From Rhodothermales bacterium (GTDB lineage Bacteria > Bacteroidota > Rhodothermia > Rhodothermales > UBA10348): 64,000 nucleotides of DNA. The notes under the pieces were generated by a model. It did no database searches and was not told the DNA's origin. It worked only from the letters and a program-made list of their open reading frames with translations. Where the stretch lies: the NCBI GenBank assembly GCA_024711125.1, contig JANJTM010000025.1, forward strand, positions 248,001-312,000, given 5' to 3'. Positions 41,692 through 50,833 of this stretch are shown piece by piece; within the stretch, counting starts at the first letter, position 1; each line of letters starts with the position of its first letter. The position numbers and the translations under genes were made by a program.

Positions 41692-42738
41692 TCAGGCTCC
41701 GGGACGATCGATCACCTCCATCACGCGTCGTCGGGGGGTGGCACGTCCGGGTGATCCGTACCCCATGCGCAGCACGAGCTGCGGCGTGTGAGACGTTCGG
41801 GCGATCTCGGCGACCTGCGGCCTCAGATCGGCGATCTCGACGGGTTGGTTGAGGAAGGACGCGTACAACCCGCGGGAGACTCCCTCGAGCAGCACGCGCG
41901 CCAGCGCCTGACCGGTTTCGAGCCAGGACGAGGCGTTGTCGCCGCGCGACGACAGCACCAGGAGGAGCGGCGAACCCTCGGCCAGTTCCCGGTCCCGGGC
42001 CGCCCGACCCCGACCCCAGTCGAAGGTGCGCACGACGAGCGGTCCCGCGAGCGAGGAAAGGTCACCGAGGCCCACGCCGTACCCGGGAATCCCGTCGCGG
42101 CTCGAGGATCGGTTGGGGTGCATCCAGGCCGCCAGTTCGCGGCGGAAACTCCGGTCACTCCCCTGCCTGCGATCCCCCTCCGCGATCAAGTCGGCCATTC
42201 GGTTACGGTCTGCCATCTCGCGTAACACAGAAAGCTCGACCCCCTCGACCTCGGCCGACGCGCGCAAGGCCTCGCACGTGGATTCCTCGACCGGTCGATC
42301 GTCGAAGGGCACCCGCACCGTCCTGCGATTCGGAATGGCCCGGAAGTGGCGCCGAACGTCCTCGGTCGGCTCCTCCGATCGGCCGCCCCGTACCCATGCG
42401 AGAAGGTCGGGGTTACGCAGGTCCGGAAAAGTCCTGACCTCGGGTCGTCGTCCGAAGTAAGCCAGCGCTACCCGGAGGTGATACAGCGCCGCGCCGCACG
42501 AAATGACCAGCTCCCGGTCTTCCGGGTCTGCGACCGGGAGCGCCCTGCGCCGGTCGGCCAGCAACGAGACTTCTTCGCCCGACAGCCGGAACAGCCACGG
42601 TTGGGTATTGTGCGACGACGGCGCCAGCACGGCGTAGTTCAGGAGAAAACGGAGCTGCTCCTCGGGCATCGCGCCCGCGGGATACTCCGTCTCCTGTACG
42701 CGCCAGGGATCAGCCTGCGCGAATTCGTAACTGCCCAT
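41692..42738 (-). CDS. Acg-type FMN-binding nitroreductase-family protein
   Basis: 348 residues. The segment LNYAVLAPSSHNTQPWLFRL, followed by RELVISCGAALYHLRVAL, is characteristic of the Acg family, fused two-domain relatives of nitroreductases. The mycobacterial member Acg (Rv2032) belongs to the DosR hypoxia regulon. Later segments GYGVGLGDLSSLAG and LVLRMGYGSPGRATPRR fit the second half. The enzyme may bind or sequester FMN; activity is uncertain. The start lies 128 bases from the palindrome at 42865 and just downstream of an inverted repeat at 42790. It is the last gene of the minus-strand stress block. Confidence 0.85.
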   Translation of the reverse strand: MGSYEFAQADPWRVQETEYPAGAMPEEQLRFLLNYAVLAPSSHNTQPWLFRLSGEEVSLLADRRRALPVADPEDRELVISCGAALYHLRVALAYFGRRPEVRTFPDLRNPDLLAWVRGGRSEEPTEDVRRHFRAIPNRRTVRVPFDDRPVEESTCEALRASAEVEGVELSVLREMADRNRMADLIAEGDRRQGSDRSFRRELAAWMHPNRSSSRDGIPGYGVGLGDLSSLAGPLVVRTFDWGRGRAARDRELAEGSPLLLVLSSRGDNASSWLETGQALARVLLEGVSRGLYASFLNQPVEIADLRPQVAEIARTSHTPQLVLRMGYGSPGRATPRRRVMEVIDRPGA

Positions 42739-42789: not shown

Positions 42790-42818
42790 CGCCGTTCATG
42801 AAGGAACGGCGAAGGATA
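42790..42818 (-). promoter_or_regulatory. Predicted -7 element and overlapping inverted repeat before the Acg gene
   Basis: On the minus strand TATCCTTC (42818-42811) resembles the local TAnnTTTC -7 element. It is followed by CGCCGTTC-CTTCAT-GAACGGCG (42811-42790), a perfect 8-bp inverted repeat with a 6-base centre. The repeat would span the transcription start and could be an operator or a leader hairpin. The nearby palindrome at 42865 is about 65 bases upstream of the predicted start, a normal distance for a NarL/FixJ activator. Confidence 0.4.
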
Positions 42819-42864
42819 CGGTGTCTACGGCCCGCTCACTGTGCGGAACGGACCCCGGGCTCTT

Positions 42865-42880
42865 GTAGGGGATTTCCCTA
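42865..42880. promoter_or_regulatory. Palindromic box upstream of the Acg gene (candidate response-regulator site)
   Basis: GTAGGGGATTTCCCTA, with inverted arms TAGGG and CCCTA. A near copy lies at 45891 before the universal stress operon. AT-rich centres flanked by GGG/CCC arms are unusual in this background. The two sites sit in front of the two downstream transcription units of a sensor-regulator block, suggesting they are binding sites for its regulator. Confidence 0.5.
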
Positions 42881-42899
42881 ATTCCGCGGCATGGGATCG

Positions 42900-43730
42900 T
42901 CACGAACGCCCGCCCGCGTCCTTGAGCCGGAACCGGATCGGAATGGCCATGCGGACCGAGACCGCCCGACCCCGCTGTTTGCCCGGGACGAACCGGAGTT
43001 TCATGACGGCATCGGCGGCCGCACGGTCCAGGACCTCGCCCGCCGATCGCACCACGATCGGGTCCGTCGGCACCCCCTGCGGACTGACGACGATCTGGAT
43101 GACGACCAGCCCCTCCATCCCCGCCTGGCGGGCGATCGGCGGGTACTCCAGGTACTCGTAGACCTTCTGGCTTCCGCCGATGATCTCCGGCATCTGCTCG
43201 ACGACCACGAAGATCTCGGGCTCCGGTTCTTCGATCGCCCGGTCGTCTGACGGTGGAGCGGGCGGGGGCGGCGGCAGCGTCGAGATCGGCTCATCGAGAT
43301 CGAGGGACGCATCCAGGTCGAGGTCGACGTCGTCGAGTATCCTGTCATCCGGCACTTCCACCGGTACCGGCGGCCGAGGCGGCGGAGGCGGCCGCTGCAC
43401 CTGCTGCGTCTGCTGGATTTCCTCCATCTGCACGATTTCCTGTTCGGAAAGCGTGATATCGAGGGTCGCTCCGTCGGAACTCCATTCGATGCGGAACGCG
43501 GCGACCACCAGTGTCAGCACGAGGGCCAGCGAGGCCAGCAGGGTGAGCCGATAATCGGGGCGGAGATCGATGCCCGGTCGGCGGACGATCTTTCTCCGTC
43601 CCGGGACAGGGGACACGACAGCAGCCTTTCGAGAGGATTCCCGGGGCACGAGGCGCGGTGACGCACCCTCTGCCTCCCGGTCGGCCAGGCGTCGTTCCCG
43701 GCTTCTTTCGGGTCGGAAGTGGGTCTTCAT
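42900..43730 (-). CDS. TonB-like energy transducer
   Basis: 276 residues: a long basic cytoplasmic N-terminus (1-60), one membrane helix (YRLTLLASLALVLTLVVAAF, about 60-79), a periplasmic Pro-rich spacer with PPPPPRPPVP and PPPPPAPPS, and a TonB C-terminal domain (EYPPIARQAGMEGLVVIQIV, then AVMKLRFVPGKQRGRAV). TonB passes proton-motive energy from ExbB/ExbD to outer-membrane receptors. It is the third gene after two universal stress proteins, 21 bases from the second, an odd place for TonB. ExbB and ExbD are encoded at 58-59 kb. The 60-residue N-terminus is longer than usual. Confidence 0.9.
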   Translation of the reverse strand: MKTHFRPERSRERRLADREAEGASPRLVPRESSRKAAVVSPVPGRRKIVRRPGIDLRPDYRLTLLASLALVLTLVVAAFRIEWSSDGATLDITLSEQEIVQMEEIQQTQQVQRPPPPPRPPVPVEVPDDRILDDVDLDLDASLDLDEPISTLPPPPPAPPSDDRAIEEPEPEIFVVVEQMPEIIGGSQKVYEYLEYPPIARQAGMEGLVVIQIVVSPQGVPTDPIVVRSAGEVLDRAAADAVMKLRFVPGKQRGRAVSVRMAIPIRFRLKDAGGRS

Positions 43731-43751
43731 GGCGATGTTCTCCTTTCGGGG

Positions 43752-44702
43752 TCAAGCCGTTCGCGCCTGGTGCGCGGCCGGCGCCATCCGGGCGCCGCCG
43801 AGGGAACGCGATGCTCCCTGCAACAGGCTGCGACCCCAGGTCTTGACCGTGAGTACGGGGCAGGGCGCCGAACGGGTAACGGCATCGGCTACACTGCCGA
43901 TGCTCACCGCGCCGCGCCCCCTGTTTCCATGGCTTGCCAGCATCACGAGGGGATGGTCCCGTCGAATGGCGTCTCTCACGATCGCCTCCGCGGGACGGCC
44001 CTCCGTCAGCTCGATCTCGACGGTAAGCCCCGGGCTCTCCTGCGCCCGCGCCAGATCCGAGAGCCTGCGACGGGCGTCGGCGCGCTGCTGTTCGCTCGAG
44101 GCGCGCGGAAGCACGTGGAGCAGGACGAGGGGCACTCCGTAGAACAAGGCCATCGACCCGGCCTGCGCCGCAAGTCCCGACGCATGCGGGGAGTCGTCGA
44201 CGGGTGCCACGACCTGGCGGAACCCGGTGGTGGTTCGACTTCCCTGGGGACCGACCGCCAGCACGGGGCAGCGGGTCTCCGGCAGCACCATGCGGGCGGT
44301 CTGCCCGATGGGCCAACCGTCCGGCGTATCGTTGAGGAAACGCCGCACCGAATGCCACCCGTGCGTGCCCAGCACGAGCATGTCGATGTCGTCGAGCGCC
44401 GCCCGATCAAGGATCGCCTCGGTTGCATCCTCCGCCCAGAGCGTTCGAGCGGCGACCTCGCGTTCGAGCCATCGGAAACGCACCACGTCGCTTCCGGAGG
44501 AGGTCTCGTACGCGCTGCGCCAGGCCCGGGCCAGGGGATGCTGCAGCGAAAGGCAATCGCGGCCCGTCACCCCCATTTCGCATACGTGCAGCAGCTCCAG
44601 CTCACCGCCCGAGCGCATCGCCAGGTCGGCGCCGAGGGCCAGCGCCGCGTCCGCGCATCCGGAAAAATCCGTGGCAACCACGATCCTGCGAAACGAAATC
44701 AT
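43752..44702 (-). CDS. Tandem universal stress protein (UspA), second of pair
   Basis: 316 residues with two Usp domains. Domain 1 (MISFRRIVVATDFSGCADAA) has a degenerate nucleotide site (LVLGTHGWHSVRRFLND). Domain 2 (FRQVVAPVDDSPHASGL) keeps the ATP-binding pattern G-2x-G-9x-G-S in SHGNRGRGAVSIGSVA. The start was set at 44702 because it overlaps the upstream usp stop by 4 bases (ATGA) and opens at a canonical Usp N-terminus; the frame is open further upstream. Usp proteins accumulate under growth arrest, hypoxia or oxidative stress. One ATP site apparently lost, one kept. Confidence 0.92.
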   Translation of the reverse strand: MISFRRIVVATDFSGCADAALALGADLAMRSGGELELLHVCEMGVTGRDCLSLQHPLARAWRSAYETSSGSDVVRFRWLEREVAARTLWAEDATEAILDRAALDDIDMLVLGTHGWHSVRRFLNDTPDGWPIGQTARMVLPETRCPVLAVGPQGSRTTTGFRQVVAPVDDSPHASGLAAQAGSMALFYGVPLVLLHVLPRASSEQQRADARRRLSDLARAQESPGLTVEIELTEGRPAEAIVRDAIRRDHPLVMLASHGNRGRGAVSIGSVADAVTRSAPCPVLTVKTWGRSLLQGASRSLGGARMAPAAHQARTA

Positions 44703-45655
44703 CCGTCGTGCTCCTGGGATTCGCCGACATGCGGCATGGCGAACGGTCCGTCGGCGAGGGTCTTGACCACGAGCGTCGGACACGGCGCCGATCGCACCAC
44801 GTGGTCGGCGACGCTGCCGATCAGCAGGTGGGCGAGCCCGGTGAGCCCATGGGTGGACATCACGATCAATGCGGCCTCCCTATCGCTCGCCACGCGGATG
44901 ATCTCCGTCGCGGCCCGTCCGTCCACCACTTCGTACTCGACGGGCACGTCGGGCCCTGGCGTCCGTTCGACGACGGCGCGAAGGTGTTCCCAGGCCTTCT
45001 CCTCGACGTCGGGCTGCAGGTCGTAGATGGAGAACGCCCCCGCGTTGTAGAACGCCGGATGCAGCGTCTCTTCGATCACGTGCAGGACGCGGAGACCGGT
45101 CTGCAAATGCGCGGCGATTTCGCGACCCGCGTGAACCGCCTCGAGCGAGTGATCCGAAAAATCGACCGGAACCAATACTTCGCGTCCGTCGCCGGGCAGC
45201 AGACGCTGCACGTCGGCGTCCGACCGCACGGTCAGCACCGCGCACGGCAGCGCCCGCACCATCTCCTCGGCAACCGACCCCAGCATCCAGTGGCGAAGCC
45301 CCCGTCGTCCGTGGGTGCCGGCAATCGCCAGGTCCACGGAATGCGTGCGAACGAACCGGTCGAGCGCGGGCATGACGGCCGAATCCACGAGCACGTGGGT
45401 CTCCAGCGCCCCGGGAGGCGGCATGCCCGTGTCGGCGGCGACCGACGCCGCCAGTTCGTTCATGGCATCGATGACGCGCCGCCTGTGATCGGCCGGGTAG
45501 GTCGCCGGCGCGAAGGGGTCTGCGTGCACCACCTGGACGAAAGCCAGGTGGACCCTGGCGCCGGTCCGACCGGCCAGCCGGAAAGCCAGGCGAAGGCCCT
45601 CGGTCGAACATTCGCTGAAATCGACCGCGACCAGGATGTCGTCGAGACGCAGCAT
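44699..45655 (-). CDS. Tandem universal stress protein (UspA), first of pair
   Basis: 318 residues, two Usp domains, both with the ATP-binding pattern: AGTHGRRGLRHWMLGSVAEE in the first and STHGLTGLAHLLIGSVADH in the second. N-terminus MLRLDDILVAVDFSECSTEG is canonical. It leads the usp-usp-tonB transcript. The 301-base upstream region carries a palindrome at 45891 shared with the Acg gene and a TACGTTGC -7-like element at 45788-45795. In mycobacteria, paired usp genes of this kind belong to the DosR regulon, which is the basis for the regulon idea here. Confidence 0.93.
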   Translation of the reverse strand: MLRLDDILVAVDFSECSTEGLRLAFRLAGRTGARVHLAFVQVVHADPFAPATYPADHRRRVIDAMNELAASVAADTGMPPPGALETHVLVDSAVMPALDRFVRTHSVDLAIAGTHGRRGLRHWMLGSVAEEMVRALPCAVLTVRSDADVQRLLPGDGREVLVPVDFSDHSLEAVHAGREIAAHLQTGLRVLHVIEETLHPAFYNAGAFSIYDLQPDVEEKAWEHLRAVVERTPGPDVPVEYEVVDGRAATEIIRVASDREAALIVMSTHGLTGLAHLLIGSVADHVVRSAPCPTLVVKTLADGPFAMPHVGESQEHDG

Positions 45656-45956
45656 GGCAGTCTGTCTCCCCGCAGGACCCGGTCGCCGACCGGGAACCGC
45701 GGAATGGAATCCGTCGATCCGGGTCCGTCATGCCGACCGCGGGAGACACGCACCCGTCCCGCGGGCATCGCGCACGACGACCCGGACGCAACGTACGCGC
45801 GATTGTGAAGCGCGTGTGACGGGACGCCATACGACTACCTGTGGGGGGATGACTCGACCGCGTAGACGGACGGACACCCGAACGCCCGGCGGGGAAATCC
45901 CTACACGGATGGCGGGACGCCCATCCGCTGACCTCTGCGGTCCGACCCCGTGCGGC
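45656..45956 (-). promoter_or_regulatory. Regulatory intergenic region of the usp-usp-tonB operon
   Basis: 301 bases without a convincing ORF. Read on the minus strand it contains, in order: an imperfect hairpin (GGATGGGCG/CGCCATCC, 45909-45930) just after the response-regulator stop, the GTAGGGATTTCCCC box (45904-45891), a GC-rich stretch, and TACGTTGC (45795-45788) as a possible -7 element, leaving a leader of about 130 bases. The box lies about 110 bases upstream of the predicted start, somewhat far for direct activation, so another promoter may exist. Confidence 0.45.
45891..45904. promoter_or_regulatory. Palindromic box upstream of the usp operon
   Basis: GGGGAAATCCCTAC on the plus strand, GTAGGGATTTCCCC on the minus. 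It contains the perfect core GGGA-TT-TCCC. Compared with the site at 42865 (GTAGGGGATTTCCC), it differs by one inserted G. No third copy of GGGATTTCCC was found in intergenic sequence of the window. Confidence 0.5.
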
Positions 45957-46607
45957 TCAGCCCGCCCCCTCGCCTTCCACCCACTGCACCGCGTGTTGCA
46001 TCAACTCCGCGGCGCTGGTCAGGTTCAGCTTGTTCTTTATGCGGGCCCGATACGACTCGACCGTCTTCACCGACAGGTGCAGCCTCTCGGCGATTTCCCG
46101 CGTGCCGTATCCGCGCCCGGTCAGTTCGAACACCTCCAACTCCCTGTCGCTCAACACCTCGAGCGGCGACTTCACCATGCCGTCGCGCCCGGTGGCCATG
46201 CCGAGAAGGAGGCGTTCGTTGATCTCGTCGCTGACGTAGATACCCCCGTTCATGACCCGGCGGATGGCGCGTATCATGACGTCGGCCGCCTCGAGCTTCA
46301 TGACGTAGCCGCGGGCGCCTGCCCGGATGGCGCGCTCCGCATAAAGCGACTCGTCGTGCCTGGAAACCACGAGGATCTTGAGTGCGGGCTTCAACGCCAG
46401 CATGTGCTTGATCAACTCGAGACCGCTCATGCCCGGCAGGGAGATGTCTACAACCGCCATTTCCGGGTCCTCGGCCTGGAGCGCGTCCAACGCCTCCTCG
46501 GCGTTGGAGGCCTGGGCCACCACCTTGACGTCGGGCTCGCTGCTCATGGACATGACGAGCCCCTTGCGCATCAGCGGATGGTCGTCGACGATGAGAACTC
46601 GGATCAT
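45957..46607 (-). CDS. NarL/FixJ family response regulator (DosR-like)
   Basis: 216 residues from ATG at 46607, which overlaps the kinase stop (ATGA). The receiver domain has VLIVDDHPLMRKGL (acidic pocket), AVVDISLPGMSG with phospho-acceptor Asp54, and a conserved Lys in YVMKLEAADV. The LuxR-type HTH is LSDRELEVFELTGRGYGTRE with recognition helix LSVKTVESYRARI. Such regulators bind short palindromes as dimers. Coupled expression with the FixL-type PAS kinase marks them as a two-component pair. Confidence 0.95.
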   Translation of the reverse strand: MIRVLIVDDHPLMRKGLVMSMSSEPDVKVVAQASNAEEALDALQAEDPEMAVVDISLPGMSGLELIKHMLALKPALKILVVSRHDESLYAERAIRAGARGYVMKLEAADVMIRAIRRVMNGGIYVSDEINERLLLGMATGRDGMVKSPLEVLSDRELEVFELTGRGYGTREIAERLHLSVKTVESYRARIKNKLNLTSAAELMQHAVQWVEGEGAG

Positions 46608-47977
46608 GGAAGAGTGACCTCGTTGCTGGTCTGATTGGCCGGATCCGGCCAGAGAGCGGAAGATCGGGGCAGCGTGCACGTAATGACAGTACCCCCCTCG
46701 GGACGATTCCGGATCTCCAGCACCGCGCCGATCACCCGGGCGCGGTAGTGCATGATACGTACCCCCATGCCACGATCGTCGTCGAGGGTCTCCGGAAAGC
46801 CGACGCCATTGTCCTGGATGCGCAGGCGGATCTGGTCCCGCCCGGAGGCCAGGGTGACCCGCACGCTGCTGGCCCGTCCGTGTTTGACGGCGTTGGATAC
46901 CGCCTCCTGGGCGATCCGGTAGAGGTTGATGGCCGACGTCGAATCACGAAGCGGAATCGAGCCGACCTCCTCGAAGAAGCACTCGATGCCGAACAGGCGC
47001 GCCGCGTTGGTCGACAGGCGCTGCACGGCGGCGGCGAGCCCGTGGGCGTCCAGTTCCACCGGCACGAGACCGCGGGCGAGGGAGCGGGCCTGTTGGTCTG
47101 CCTCCCGGACGAGTTCGGTGATTTCCTCCACCTCCCCCGCGACGGGCGAGTGTTCGCCTCTCAGGCGCCGCGCCAGGTTCTGCGAAATGAGCCCGATACC
47201 CGTGAGCATCTGGCCGAGCCCGTCGTGAAGGTCCTGCCCGATACGGCGTCGCTCCTGGTCGCTGATGCGCAGTACCTCGTTCTCGAGCCGGCGACGTTCC
47301 GAAATGTCCCGCACGAGACCGGTGAACGTGACCCCGTCCTGTGACCGGACCTCCGAAACGGCGAGGTCCATCGGAAAGGTGGAGCCGTCCCGGCGCCGGC
47401 CGAGCACCTCCCGGCCTATGCCGATGATCTTTCGGCGCCCCGTGCGCAGGTAATTGAGCAGGTACGCGTCGTGCTCGTCGCGGAACGGGTCGGGCATGAG
47501 CGAGCTGACGTTCCGCCCGACGAGTTCGTCGGCCGTATACCCGAAGATGCGCTCGACGGCCGGGTTTACCGACAGCATGCGACCGGTCTCGTCGATGACG
47601 ATGATGCCGTCGACGGTAGTGTCGATGATCGCGCGCAGGCGGCGTTCCCTCGACAGCAGGGTCGCCCTGCGCCGGGCGAGAAACGGCAGGCGCCGCTCCA
47701 GGTTGTCCGAAAGGACCCAGTCGTCTGCGCCGGCTTCGTACAGATCCTCGTCGGTGGGCCGGTCGGCGTCCTCGCGGACGGCAAAAACGGGGCAGGTCGG
47801 ATCGAGCGAGGCCCGGGCCGAACGTAGACGGTCGAGGTCACCGGGTTCACGCACGTGCACGAGCGCGATGTCGGGAGTTCCGTCGACCAGCGAAACGTCG
47901 TGCACGAACCGCACCTTGCCGACGGCAGGCACCTCGGGCAACGAGCGACCCTCCCCTCCGATCACGAGTATCTGCAT
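46604..47977 (-). CDS. Sensor histidine kinase with FixL-type (haem-pocket) PAS domain and HisKA_3 transmitter
   Basis: 457 residues. Residues 1-105 resemble a receiver without its acidic pocket. Residues 110-228 form a PAS domain aligning with FixL: DEHDAYL has His169 at the position of the haem-ligating His200 of Bradyrhizobium FixL, and KIIGIGREVLG has Ile184 and Arg189 at Ile215 and Arg220, which contact bound oxygen; RRDGSTFPMDLAVSE and VTFTGLVRDISER also match. Arg206 is replaced by Asn175. The transmitter is HisKA_3 (IGQDLHDGLGQMLTGI, His251) with HATPase QEAVSNAVKHG and DNGVGF, as in NarX/DosS rather than FixL. No membrane helix. Likely a cytoplasmic oxygen or redox sensor; haem binding is inferred. 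Confidence 0.88.
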   Translation of the reverse strand: MQILVIGGEGRSLPEVPAVGKVRFVHDVSLVDGTPDIALVHVREPGDLDRLRSARASLDPTCPVFAVREDADRPTDEDLYEAGADDWVLSDNLERRLPFLARRRATLLSRERRLRAIIDTTVDGIIVIDETGRMLSVNPAVERIFGYTADELVGRNVSSLMPDPFRDEHDAYLLNYLRTGRRKIIGIGREVLGRRRDGSTFPMDLAVSEVRSQDGVTFTGLVRDISERRRLENEVLRISDQERRRIGQDLHDGLGQMLTGIGLISQNLARRLRGEHSPVAGEVEEITELVREADQQARSLARGLVPVELDAHGLAAAVQRLSTNAARLFGIECFFEEVGSIPLRDSTSAINLYRIAQEAVSNAVKHGRASSVRVTLASGRDQIRLRIQDNGVGFPETLDDDRGMGVRIMHYRARVIGAVLEIRNRPEGGTVITCTLPRSSALWPDPANQTSNEVTLP

Positions 47978-49033: not shown

Positions 49034-49984
49034 TCAGAAGCCGACGAGAGATACCAGGTCGTCGTCGGAACCGGCGGGGGCTCCGGCATCACGCCCGGAG
49101 AGCAGCGCCGAGAGTCGGAGCGTGGCGTGCAGGCCGAGCAGACCGTCCTCCCTGCGCGCGTGCTCGTCCAATCGGGCGGTCACGTCCGCACGACGCCACT
49201 CGGGAGGAACGAACAGCGCGCGCGGGCCCCAGGGACCGTCGGGGGCGGTCGCGGGAAAACTGCGCTGGGGTTCGAACTCGCGGTCTCCGTAGTGGCAACC
49301 GTAACAATCGGCCGGAACGCGCAGGTCGTCCGTGGTGCCGCGGATCCGGTCGACAGGGAGCCCGTCCGCGCCGTACGCGGCGAAATCCCAGAATCCGTCG
49401 GACCTCCGGGTCATCACCGTCGTCTCCACGACCCGCCCGGCGTCGAGATGCTCCCCGACGACCACCGTGCCCGGCGGGTACCGCAGTCCGCGCCCTTCCG
49501 CGAAGGAAACGACGGCCGATCGCACCGCGGCGAGCGGAATGTGCAGTCGCCTGCGGTACGTGGTCATCGACCCGGCGACCTCGTGTCGGAACCACTCGCC
49601 GTCTCGGTCCCGGTAGCCGGTTCGCGCGGCGAAAGCACCCAGGTCGGCGTCGACCGGGGGTCGCATGCGCCAGGCGCGGTCCAGGATCCGGTCCAATGCG
49701 TCCGAATCGACCCGGTCGGCAACGGCCTCGTCACGAAAGGCCAGCGCGGCACCCGGAGATCGGCCTTCGAGCACGTCGATGTCCACCAGGGTCGAACCGT
49801 CGGCCGCCACGGATACCGGATCGGAGCCCGCCGGTTCGAAGGTGCCTACCACGTAGCGGACCCGGTTCGGGCTCGCGTCCACCGCAACGCGCTTAGCACC
49901 TCCCGCACCGCAGCCGATCGCGACGACCGACGACACGATGCAGACCGGTATCCATTTGAGAATCCGGGAAAAGGACCGATGCAT
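49034..49984 (-). CDS. Lipoprotein with single CxxCH haem motif (cytochrome P460-like)
   Basis: 316 residues. The signal peptide ends in VAIGCGAGG (lipobox Cys25), so it is probably a periplasm-facing lipoprotein. A c-type haem motif CYGCH stands at 227-231, preceded by GFWDFAAYGADGLP and followed by YGDREFEP. That W-F-Y-G-DG...C-x-x-CH order recalls the C-terminal half of cytochrome P460 domains, which oxidise hydroxylamine or nitric oxide; the match is partial, so a generic monohaem protein is also possible. It lies 61 bases before folB on the strand of the sensor-kinase block. Confidence 0.6.
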   Translation of the reverse strand: MHRSFSRILKWIPVCIVSSVVAIGCGAGGAKRVAVDASPNRVRYVVGTFEPAGSDPVSVAADGSTLVDIDVLEGRSPGAALAFRDEAVADRVDSDALDRILDRAWRMRPPVDADLGAFAARTGYRDRDGEWFRHEVAGSMTTYRRRLHIPLAAVRSAVVSFAEGRGLRYPPGTVVVGEHLDAGRVVETTVMTRRSDGFWDFAAYGADGLPVDRIRGTTDDLRVPADCYGCHYGDREFEPQRSFPATAPDGPWGPRALFVPPEWRRADVTARLDEHARREDGLLGLHATLRLSALLSGRDAGAPAGSDDDLVSLVGF

Positions 49985-50077
49985 GGCAGGTATGCAGACC
50001 CCAACCGAACGAGTACCCTCGATTCGCGTTCCGTAGCCGACGCCCGCACCCCCGGAGCCCCAGTCCGGGAGTCCTTC

Positions 50078-50833
50078 ATGGATACCTCCACTCTCATCCT
50101 GGTCGTGGCCCTGGTCCTCGCCGTGGCGATCGGACCCCCGGTCGGCTTCGTCCTCGCGCGGCGACGCCTCGAGCGCAAGCTGCAGGGTCGAATGGATCGC
50201 ACCCACCGTTTCGCCGATCTCGACGCGCAGGTCCGCTCGCTGTCGGGTCCGGAGCCGCCGGATCCCGGGGTCAGGTTCCGGGGAACCCCGACGGGAACAT
50301 CCCCGGTTGCCGACCGCCCGGCGTTTGACCGGCGTACCGCGGAGCCGCTTCCGGTTCCGGAGGAACTGCACGCGCCGGGGGCCGGACGGTTCGTGCACGA
50401 CCCGCCGACGTTCGGTACGTCACCCCCCGGGCCACCTCCCGCCGCGAGGACCCCGGCCGGAACGGTCCCGGCGGCCGATCGTGCGGAAGCTCGCCCGGGC
50501 GCGACGACGGCAGGACCGCCGGCGCACTCGTCAGACGGCTCGGCGCCCGCGCAGCCCGCCGCCGACGTCACCGAATCCCCGAAATTCCGGCCTATCGCAG
50601 ACCACGTGGAGGACGCGGTCAAGCTGCGCCTGTCGTGGCTCCACCAGGTACCCACCGGCCGACTGCTCGCCCTTCACCGGCTCGGGTACGATGACCCGGT
50701 CAAGATCGCCAACCTCAGGCCGGTCGAGGTGTCACGCCTCGCGCGGGCCCTTCACGTGGCCGAGCAGGAGATCGAGGAAGAGTGGATGCCCGCGGCACGC
50801 CGCGAACTCGGCATGCGTCGGTTCGGCGCCTGA
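50078..50833 (+). CDS. Hypothetical membrane-anchored protein with Pro-rich linker
   Basis: 251 residues: an N-terminal membrane helix (STLILVVALVLAVAIGPPVGF), a basic stretch (RRRLERKLQGRM), a 110-residue Pro/Ala/Gly/Thr-rich linker, and a folded C-terminal domain of about 75 residues (HVEDAVKLRLSWLHQVPTGR, then LHRLGYDDPVKIANLRPVEV). The latter has the helix-turn-helix rhythm of a helix-hairpin-helix-like domain, so it could bind DNA or protein. I do not recognise the family. It is convergent with the PfkB gene, 4 bases apart. Confidence 0.7.
   Translation: MDTSTLILVVALVLAVAIGPPVGFVLARRRLERKLQGRMDRTHRFADLDAQVRSLSGPEPPDPGVRFRGTPTGTSPVADRPAFDRRTAEPLPVPEELHAPGAGRFVHDPPTFGTSPPGPPPAARTPAGTVPAADRAEARPGATTAGPPAHSSDGSAPAQPAADVTESPKFRPIADHVEDAVKLRLSWLHQVPTGRLLALHRLGYDDPVKIANLRPVEVSRLARALHVAEQEIEEEWMPAARRELGMRRFGA

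Follow-up and report, generated by a model that had tools for sequence, protein, structure and literature searches.

Two palindromes in a Rhodothermales genome are probable operators of a low-oxygen regulon

Why does one palindrome stand before two stress-type transcription units, acg and usp-usp-tonB, beside the genes for a sensor kinase and a response regulator? The question arises in a 64,000-nucleotide stretch of a Rhodothermales bacterium (contig JANJTM010000025.1, positions 248,001 to 312,000 of the forward strand, termed the window), which belongs to a 3.79-Mb assembly. The palindromes are very probably bound by an oxygen-response switch that had no name before. At a probability of roughly 0.87 on the sequence evidence, they are the operators of the two-component system encoded beside them, in a FixL-sensing, DosR-like oxygen regulon of Rhodothermales and Balneolia. 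The original prediction of a regulator-binding palindrome shared by the two stress units, unlike the FixJ, NarL and DosR sites and with the regulator at 45957 as candidate, is supported by genome-wide and comparative evidence and would extend to a low-oxygen regulon.

The palindromes and the 19-bp motif

The palindromes GTAGGGGATTTCCCTA (42865-42880, plus strand) and GTAGGGATTTCCCC (45904-45891, minus strand) have the sequences and positions first predicted, although their setting differs from that description. Upstream distances are 126 bp from the acg ATG (42738) to the end of the first copy, where about 65 bp had been given, and about 235 bp from the first usp ATG (45655) to the second copy. 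The copies had been thought to differ by one inserted G, but both share the spacing GTAGGG-N5-CCC, and the ungapped alignment of GTAGGG-GATTT-CCCTAA with GTAGGG-ATTTC-CCCGCC fits better than the insertion. Even-length palindromes of 16 and 18 bp are also rejected, with likelihoods far below those for 17 or 19 bp, and the full operator unit is 19 bp.

42864..42882, minus strand: candidate operator 1, 19 bp, reading ATTAGGGAAATCCCCTACA towards acg and TGTAGGGGATTTCCCTAAT on the plus strand; centre 42873, 135 bp before the acg ATG
45887..45905, minus strand: candidate operator 2, 19 bp, reading TGTAGGGATTTCCCCGCCG towards usp; centre 45896, 241 bp before the usp ATG

The motif, found INDEPENDENTLY, was learned with the window genome excluded, from 40 neighbourhoods of regulator homologues in relatives, in which genes were called with simple codon models, one trained for each GC class. 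These neighbourhoods gave 92 intergenic regions ahead of histidine kinase (HK), response regulator (RR), usp, tonB, acg or ccoN genes, which were searched by unsupervised palindromic expectation-maximization with restarts and also without the palindromic constraint. The best restarts converge on TGTAGGGgaWtcCCCTACA, present in about 58% of the regions, the unconstrained search agrees, and the operator consensus is TGTAGGG-N5-CCCTACA over 19 bp. Sites scoring at least 9 bits occur in 53/92 target regions compared with 11/202 other intergenic regions of the relatives, which are not independent samples, and none of 300 column-permuted matrices reaches the real count (mean 3, maximum 31). A matrix from one family applied to held-out families finds 26/50 versus 10/119 (p=2e-9). 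Run independently on regions around this regulator in Balneolia and Fodinibius, de novo discovery yields tgTAGGGaaattCCCTAca in 26% of 150 regions; around homologues at 50-58% identity in other phyla it gave no clear motif.

With the matrix learned from other genomes only, operator 1 scores 21.5 bits and operator 2 16.7 bits, and a window scan at 11 bits or more recovers only these two, in keeping with the prediction that the window holds no third copy. The accompanying claim that the repetition is unlikely by chance does not hold within the window, where a 13-mer with up to two mismatches has 2 matches against 0.83 expected, and is borne out by the genome and relatives. The scan of genome and relatives proposed in the original prediction places the high-scoring sites almost exclusively between genes and upstream of genes sharing one physiological theme. 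In the 1.22 Mb of the window's own genome that was scanned (92% coding), 15 intergenic and 0 coding sites score at least 15 bits, compared with averages of 0.38 intergenic and 1.6 coding for forty permuted matrices, which rules out random genomic scatter. The top 24 sites over all fetched stretches are intergenic, and nearly all of them have a gene starting 50-250 bp downstream. In 60 genomes, simple pattern counts show no general excess over a reversed-pattern control, which is unfair because CATCCC...GGGATG suits coding DNA and a stop triplet is part of GTAG; the tests therefore relied on column-permuted palindromic matrices and on placement between genes.

Target genes and promoter layout

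The genes of the two window units and the predicted promoter elements before them are as follows.

41692..42738, minus strand: acg, an Acg/Rv3131-family FMN oxidoreductase with nitroreductase fold (NF047509, 332.8 bits, cut-off 199), regulon member
44699..45655, minus strand: first universal stress protein of a tandem Usp pair, opening the usp-usp-tonB unit
43752..44702, minus strand: second universal stress protein of the pair, start at 44702 or 44714
42900..43616, minus strand: tonB-type gene of the usp-usp-tonB unit, start at 43616 or 43730; the order RR-tonB-acg recurs in relatives
42813..42818, minus strand: predicted acg -10 element TATCCT, 55 bp from the operator centre, the only TANNNT in the leader
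45790..45795, minus strand: predicted usp -10 element TACGTT, 101 bp from the operator centre, the only TANNNT in the leader
42840..42858, minus strand: possible weak secondary box CCGGGGTCCGTTCCGCACA, 24 bp downstream of operator 1, right half CCGCACA, weak in this single case
45840..45858, minus strand: possible weak secondary box GTCGAGTCATCCCCCCACA, 47 bp downstream of operator 2, right half CCCCACA

Elsewhere in the genome, sites precede ccoN/ccoO for a cbb3 oxidase (with a regulator paralogue, RR2, on the other side of the site), two pyruvate/2-oxoacid:ferredoxin oxidoreductase genes, alanine dehydrogenase, HupE, hemerythrin, several multihaem cytochromes with ApbE, an operon with a di-haem cytochrome c peroxidase of the MauG family, FeoB, DUF4212 with a sodium:solute symporter, and two TonB-dependent receptor genes. 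The remaining targets are acg, usp-usp-tonB, a further regulator paralogue (RR3) with transaldolase, acyl-CoA dehydrogenase, and some hydrolases and unknowns. The theme that unites the target genes is life at low oxygen. Three RR genes of this genome have an adjoining or nearby site, as do HK/RR, usp, tonB, acg and ccoN genes across the order.

CcoN was searched in 46 genomes, and all 18 ccoN orthologues with about 450 bp of upstream DNA, two of them from the training set, carry a site (10.8-22.6 bits, centre 46-282 bp before the start), compared with scores of at most 5.3 bits upstream of 11 haem-copper oxidase matches that are weak or unrelated. Of two other ccoN genes, one shows no site in the 116 bp available upstream, and the other had too little DNA. 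The oxidase occurs in 1/15 regulator-poor genomes compared with 20/31 others (p=2e-4, relatedness not corrected).

Measured downstream from the operator centre, a TANNNT hexamer is concentrated at 54/55, 77/78 and 100/101 bp, in 14+5, 13+9 and 5+6 of 125 oriented promoters, against a background of 0.9 per position (Poisson p 8e-13 at 54 and 2e-10 at 77, after redundancy removal), giving a ladder with a 23-bp step. Both window promoters fit this pattern, acg with its -10 element at +55 and usp at +101. The offsets are pooled over all loci, including the two in the window; the window's genome alone contributes few (7/34 promoters). Weak secondary boxes are enriched at exactly +23, with a mean score of -9.2 compared with -16.3 (standard deviation 1.1) at other offsets, and also at +46/47 (the +23/24 enrichment is over 117 promoters). 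A strong box would therefore often precede in-phase weaker boxes, the last of them near -43 at the -35 region. The Bacteroidetes-type -7 box TAnnTTTG was rejected as it is not enriched, whereas TANNNT is.

Several further observations can be added. The next operator outside the window (L271:7233-7251, G000:C30) lies about 0.77 kb before window base 1, upstream of the alanine dehydrogenase gene, and has a TANNNT at +55. Two TonB-dependent receptor genes and feoB (L317:16169-18943, L073:953-3403) carry the same operator as the unit containing the window TonB gene (42900-43616), which suggests a dedicated low-oxygen TonB uptake set. A multihaem c-type cytochrome cluster (MtrC-like, c7 and c554) with ApbE and several operators (L070:2021-14900, G000:C40) is possibly an extracellular or anaerobic electron-transfer unit. 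Within the window, 49034-50398 encodes a predicted 454-amino acid protein with no NCBIfam match and, for a 388-amino acid stretch of it, no Pfam match.

Regulator, sensor and competing readings

The candidate regulator and sensor are encoded next to operator 2.

45957..46604, minus strand: NarL/GacA/DevR-type response regulator, the proposed operator-binding protein, with recognition helix SVKTVESYRARIK
46604..47977, minus strand: soluble sensor kinase with an N-terminal region (residues 1-105), a FixL-type haem-PAS domain, HisKA_3 and HATPase_c

The regulator has DevR/DosR as its nearest solved relative (3c3w, E 2.5e-26) and scores below every cut-off of the named models MctR, GacA/UvrY, NarL and FixJ. 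Its relatives are found in Rhodothermales metagenome-assembled genomes, Roseithermus, Salinibacter and Fodinibius and then in Balneolaceae. The gene order HK-RR-(usp)-tonB-acg is kept throughout the family, and elsewhere in the order it becomes HK-RR-ccoNO or HK-RR-usp. Neighbourhood, co-distribution and helix similarity link operator and regulator, and point strongly to the 45957 protein as the one that binds. In homologues with ESHRANIK or ESHRAHIK in place of ESYRARIK (L207-L258), nearby palindromes seem changed at their outer bases (TATAGGG, ATGGGG), a possible case of helix-operator covariation.

Some points weigh against this assignment or the wider regulon. Operator 2, with a poor right half, is distant from its start codon; the matrix scan finds no operator directly upstream of the HK-RR pair in the window; about 25 RR-like matches in the genome, together with the nearly identical paralogue helices, make the assignment to the 45957 protein alone uncertain; and the S15 hydrolase, transaldolase and epimerase targets have no evident low-oxygen role.

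The operator might instead be read mainly by one of the orphan paralogues, RR2 (beside ccoN) or RR3, leaving the window regulator with other or overlapping targets. The two (L067:3366-4040, G000:C79; L061:3512-4159, G000:C15) are 75% and 51% identical to the window regulator, have no adjoining kinase gene, lie beside operator sites and are each followed by a DUF5916 gene, and all three regulators share almost the same recognition helix, [IV]KTVESYRxRxxxKL. Many relatives, however, have the site right at the HK-RR pair, and we consider a main role for the orphans unlikely while giving it some weight. With the window HK as the sole close haem-PAS kinase, all three regulators would act in one pathway.

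The sensor side argues for oxygen as the signal. The best solved-structure match of the kinase PAS domain is the FixL haem domain (1d06, E=8.7e-33), and its sequence carries His169 and Arg189, corresponding to the BjFixL haem ligand H200 and sensing R220. Nearly every HK homologue of the two orders retains the H...GIGRE signature. The core of the kinase is of the HisKA_3 type, not that of FixL, and no GAF match is present in the protein. Residues 1-105 (window 47660-47977) match no Pfam family and by eye resemble a degenerate receiver domain. At G000:C14:36096-38102 lies another kinase, 30% identical and with a regulator gene after it; its kinase match has one in-frame TAG. Haem-PAS domains can also bind NO and CO. 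The signal could accordingly be another haem or redox ligand, which hemerythrin and Acg would also fit through nitrosative stress, or the system could repress its targets, as some sites lying far upstream might suggest. The conserved FixL-type His and Arg (GIGR) and the oxygen-limitation gene set speak against a different ligand, and the fixed upstream distance to the -10 element suits activation, so that this explanation appears rather improbable.

Less probable again is that another transcription factor, for example of the Crp/Fnr type, binds the motif and the two-component genes are mere fellow targets. A regulator can indeed be just a target of a site beside its own gene, and clear Crp/Fnr-type helix-turn-helix domains (PF13545) occur in several other families of the order. 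None exceeds the cut-off in the window's own genome, however, and most of the family has no clear one either; the motif accompanies the same RR into Balneolia, and its outer TGTA/TACA resembles the GacA box, the site of a related regulator family. That the motif is only a dispersed repeat, a terminator or a palindrome arisen by chance, with no regulatory role, can practically be discounted, for while GGGGAATCCCC can fold and two copies in 64 kb are not significant alone, conservation across families is limited to the 19 bp and the -10 element, and the sites lie between genes, upstream of them and in divergent promoters, which led to rejection of the terminator, hairpin and dispersed-repeat readings.

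Computation establishes the motif and its conservation, the intergenic position of its sites, the set of targets, and the sensor and regulator domains with the key haem residues. For the FixL-sensing regulon we infer regulator binding to the motif, O2 as the signal and activation as the effect. The kinase (46604-47977) would sense O2 through its FixL-type haem-PAS domain; as oxygen falls the haem would lose O2, the HisKA_3 core would autophosphorylate and the phosphate would pass to the 45957-46604 regulator and probably also to the two orphan paralogues. One sensor would thus feed three regulators on one operator, given that it is the only close kinase copy and that RR2 and RR3 lack a kinase gene and have nearly the same helix. 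Regulator dimers would bind TGTAGGG-N5-CCCTACA, often as a strong box with a weaker one 23 bp nearer the promoter, and predicted start sites put the boxes at about -43, -66 and -89. RNA polymerase would then be activated at promoters with the common TANNNT -10 element. The regulon would ready the cell for low oxygen through the cbb3 oxidase, ferredoxin-dependent oxidoreductases, FeoB and a TonB/TonB-receptor set, along with multihaem cytochromes, hemerythrin, universal stress proteins and the Acg oxidoreductase.

Comparison with known systems

Neither a named system or motif for the lineage nor an oxygen-responsive regulator for Rhodothermales, Salinibacter or Balneolia was found in the open-licence literature searched. 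The proposed operator, sensor, regulator and predicted target list are now testable in cultured Salinibacter, Fodinibius, Roseithermus and Rhodohalobacter.

The haem-PAS domain with its haem His and sensing Arg is common to the window system and rhizobial FixL/FixJ, as is a cbb3 oxidase among the outputs. The kinase core differs, with the full-length FixL model NF041777 matching only the PAS region of the window HK (146 bits of 850), and the regulator reaches 76 bits on the FixJ model, far short of the cut-off of 255. FixLJ works through FixK, whereas the window system would act directly on its operator, no FixK-type intermediate being over the cut-off in its genome. GacA/UvrY (BarA/GacS) is a related regulator family, the window regulator scoring 144.6 bits on NF007018 (cut-off 280). 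The GacA box is TGTAAG-N6-CTTACA (PMC4950607), with the outer TGTA...TACA in common; the window operator is one base wider overall and has GGG/CCC, not AG/CT. The window system also differs from GacA in its soluble haem-PAS sensor and in protein-coding low-oxygen targets rather than small RNAs. The best-scoring named NCBIfam model for the regulator is MctR (NF052445, 151.8 against a cut-off of 300), and the MctS model NF052443 matches the window kinase core (120.7 against a cut-off of 700) with the haem-PAS domain outside the match.

Close parallels are DosR/DevR (DosS/DosT) of Mycobacterium and OsdKR of Streptomyces, which likewise have a NarL-family regulator. The DosS/DosT sensor is a haem-GAF protein, unlike the FixL-type haem-PAS of the window HK. 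The DosR regulon includes usp genes and Acg-type oxidoreductases, as do the units behind the two window operators, and the window system adds the cbb3 oxidase, FeoB and ferredoxin oxidoreductases in a different phylum. In DosR and OsdKR a G-rich palindrome is found close to usp genes and to the gene of the regulator itself (PMC5069765), and DosR uses strong and weak neighbouring boxes, the proximal one overlapping -35 (PMC3029386), an arrangement that the secondary sites at +23/+47 and the -10 ladder at +54/+77/+100 may resemble. The operators themselves differ, TGTAGGG-N5-CCCTACA (19 bp, found de novo) standing against the 16-bp AGGGCCGATCGGCCCT type of DosR (PMC5069765), which agrees with the initial view that the palindrome is not a DosR site. 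We lean towards a regulon that is particular to Rhodothermales and Balneolia and has converged on DosR, with one soluble FixL-type haem-PAS/HisKA_3 kinase, up to three NarL-type regulators and one operator repeated as a 23-bp tandem ladder on one DNA face (-43, -66, -89 and so on), replacing the missing Crp/Fnr in part of the order. Two textbook oxygen switches, a FixL sensor head and a DosR-like output, would then be joined in one lineage, and a dormancy-type universal-stress and Acg response would fall under an oxygen regulon outside Actinobacteria. The system works like DosR/DevR in outline, yet is not a member of it.

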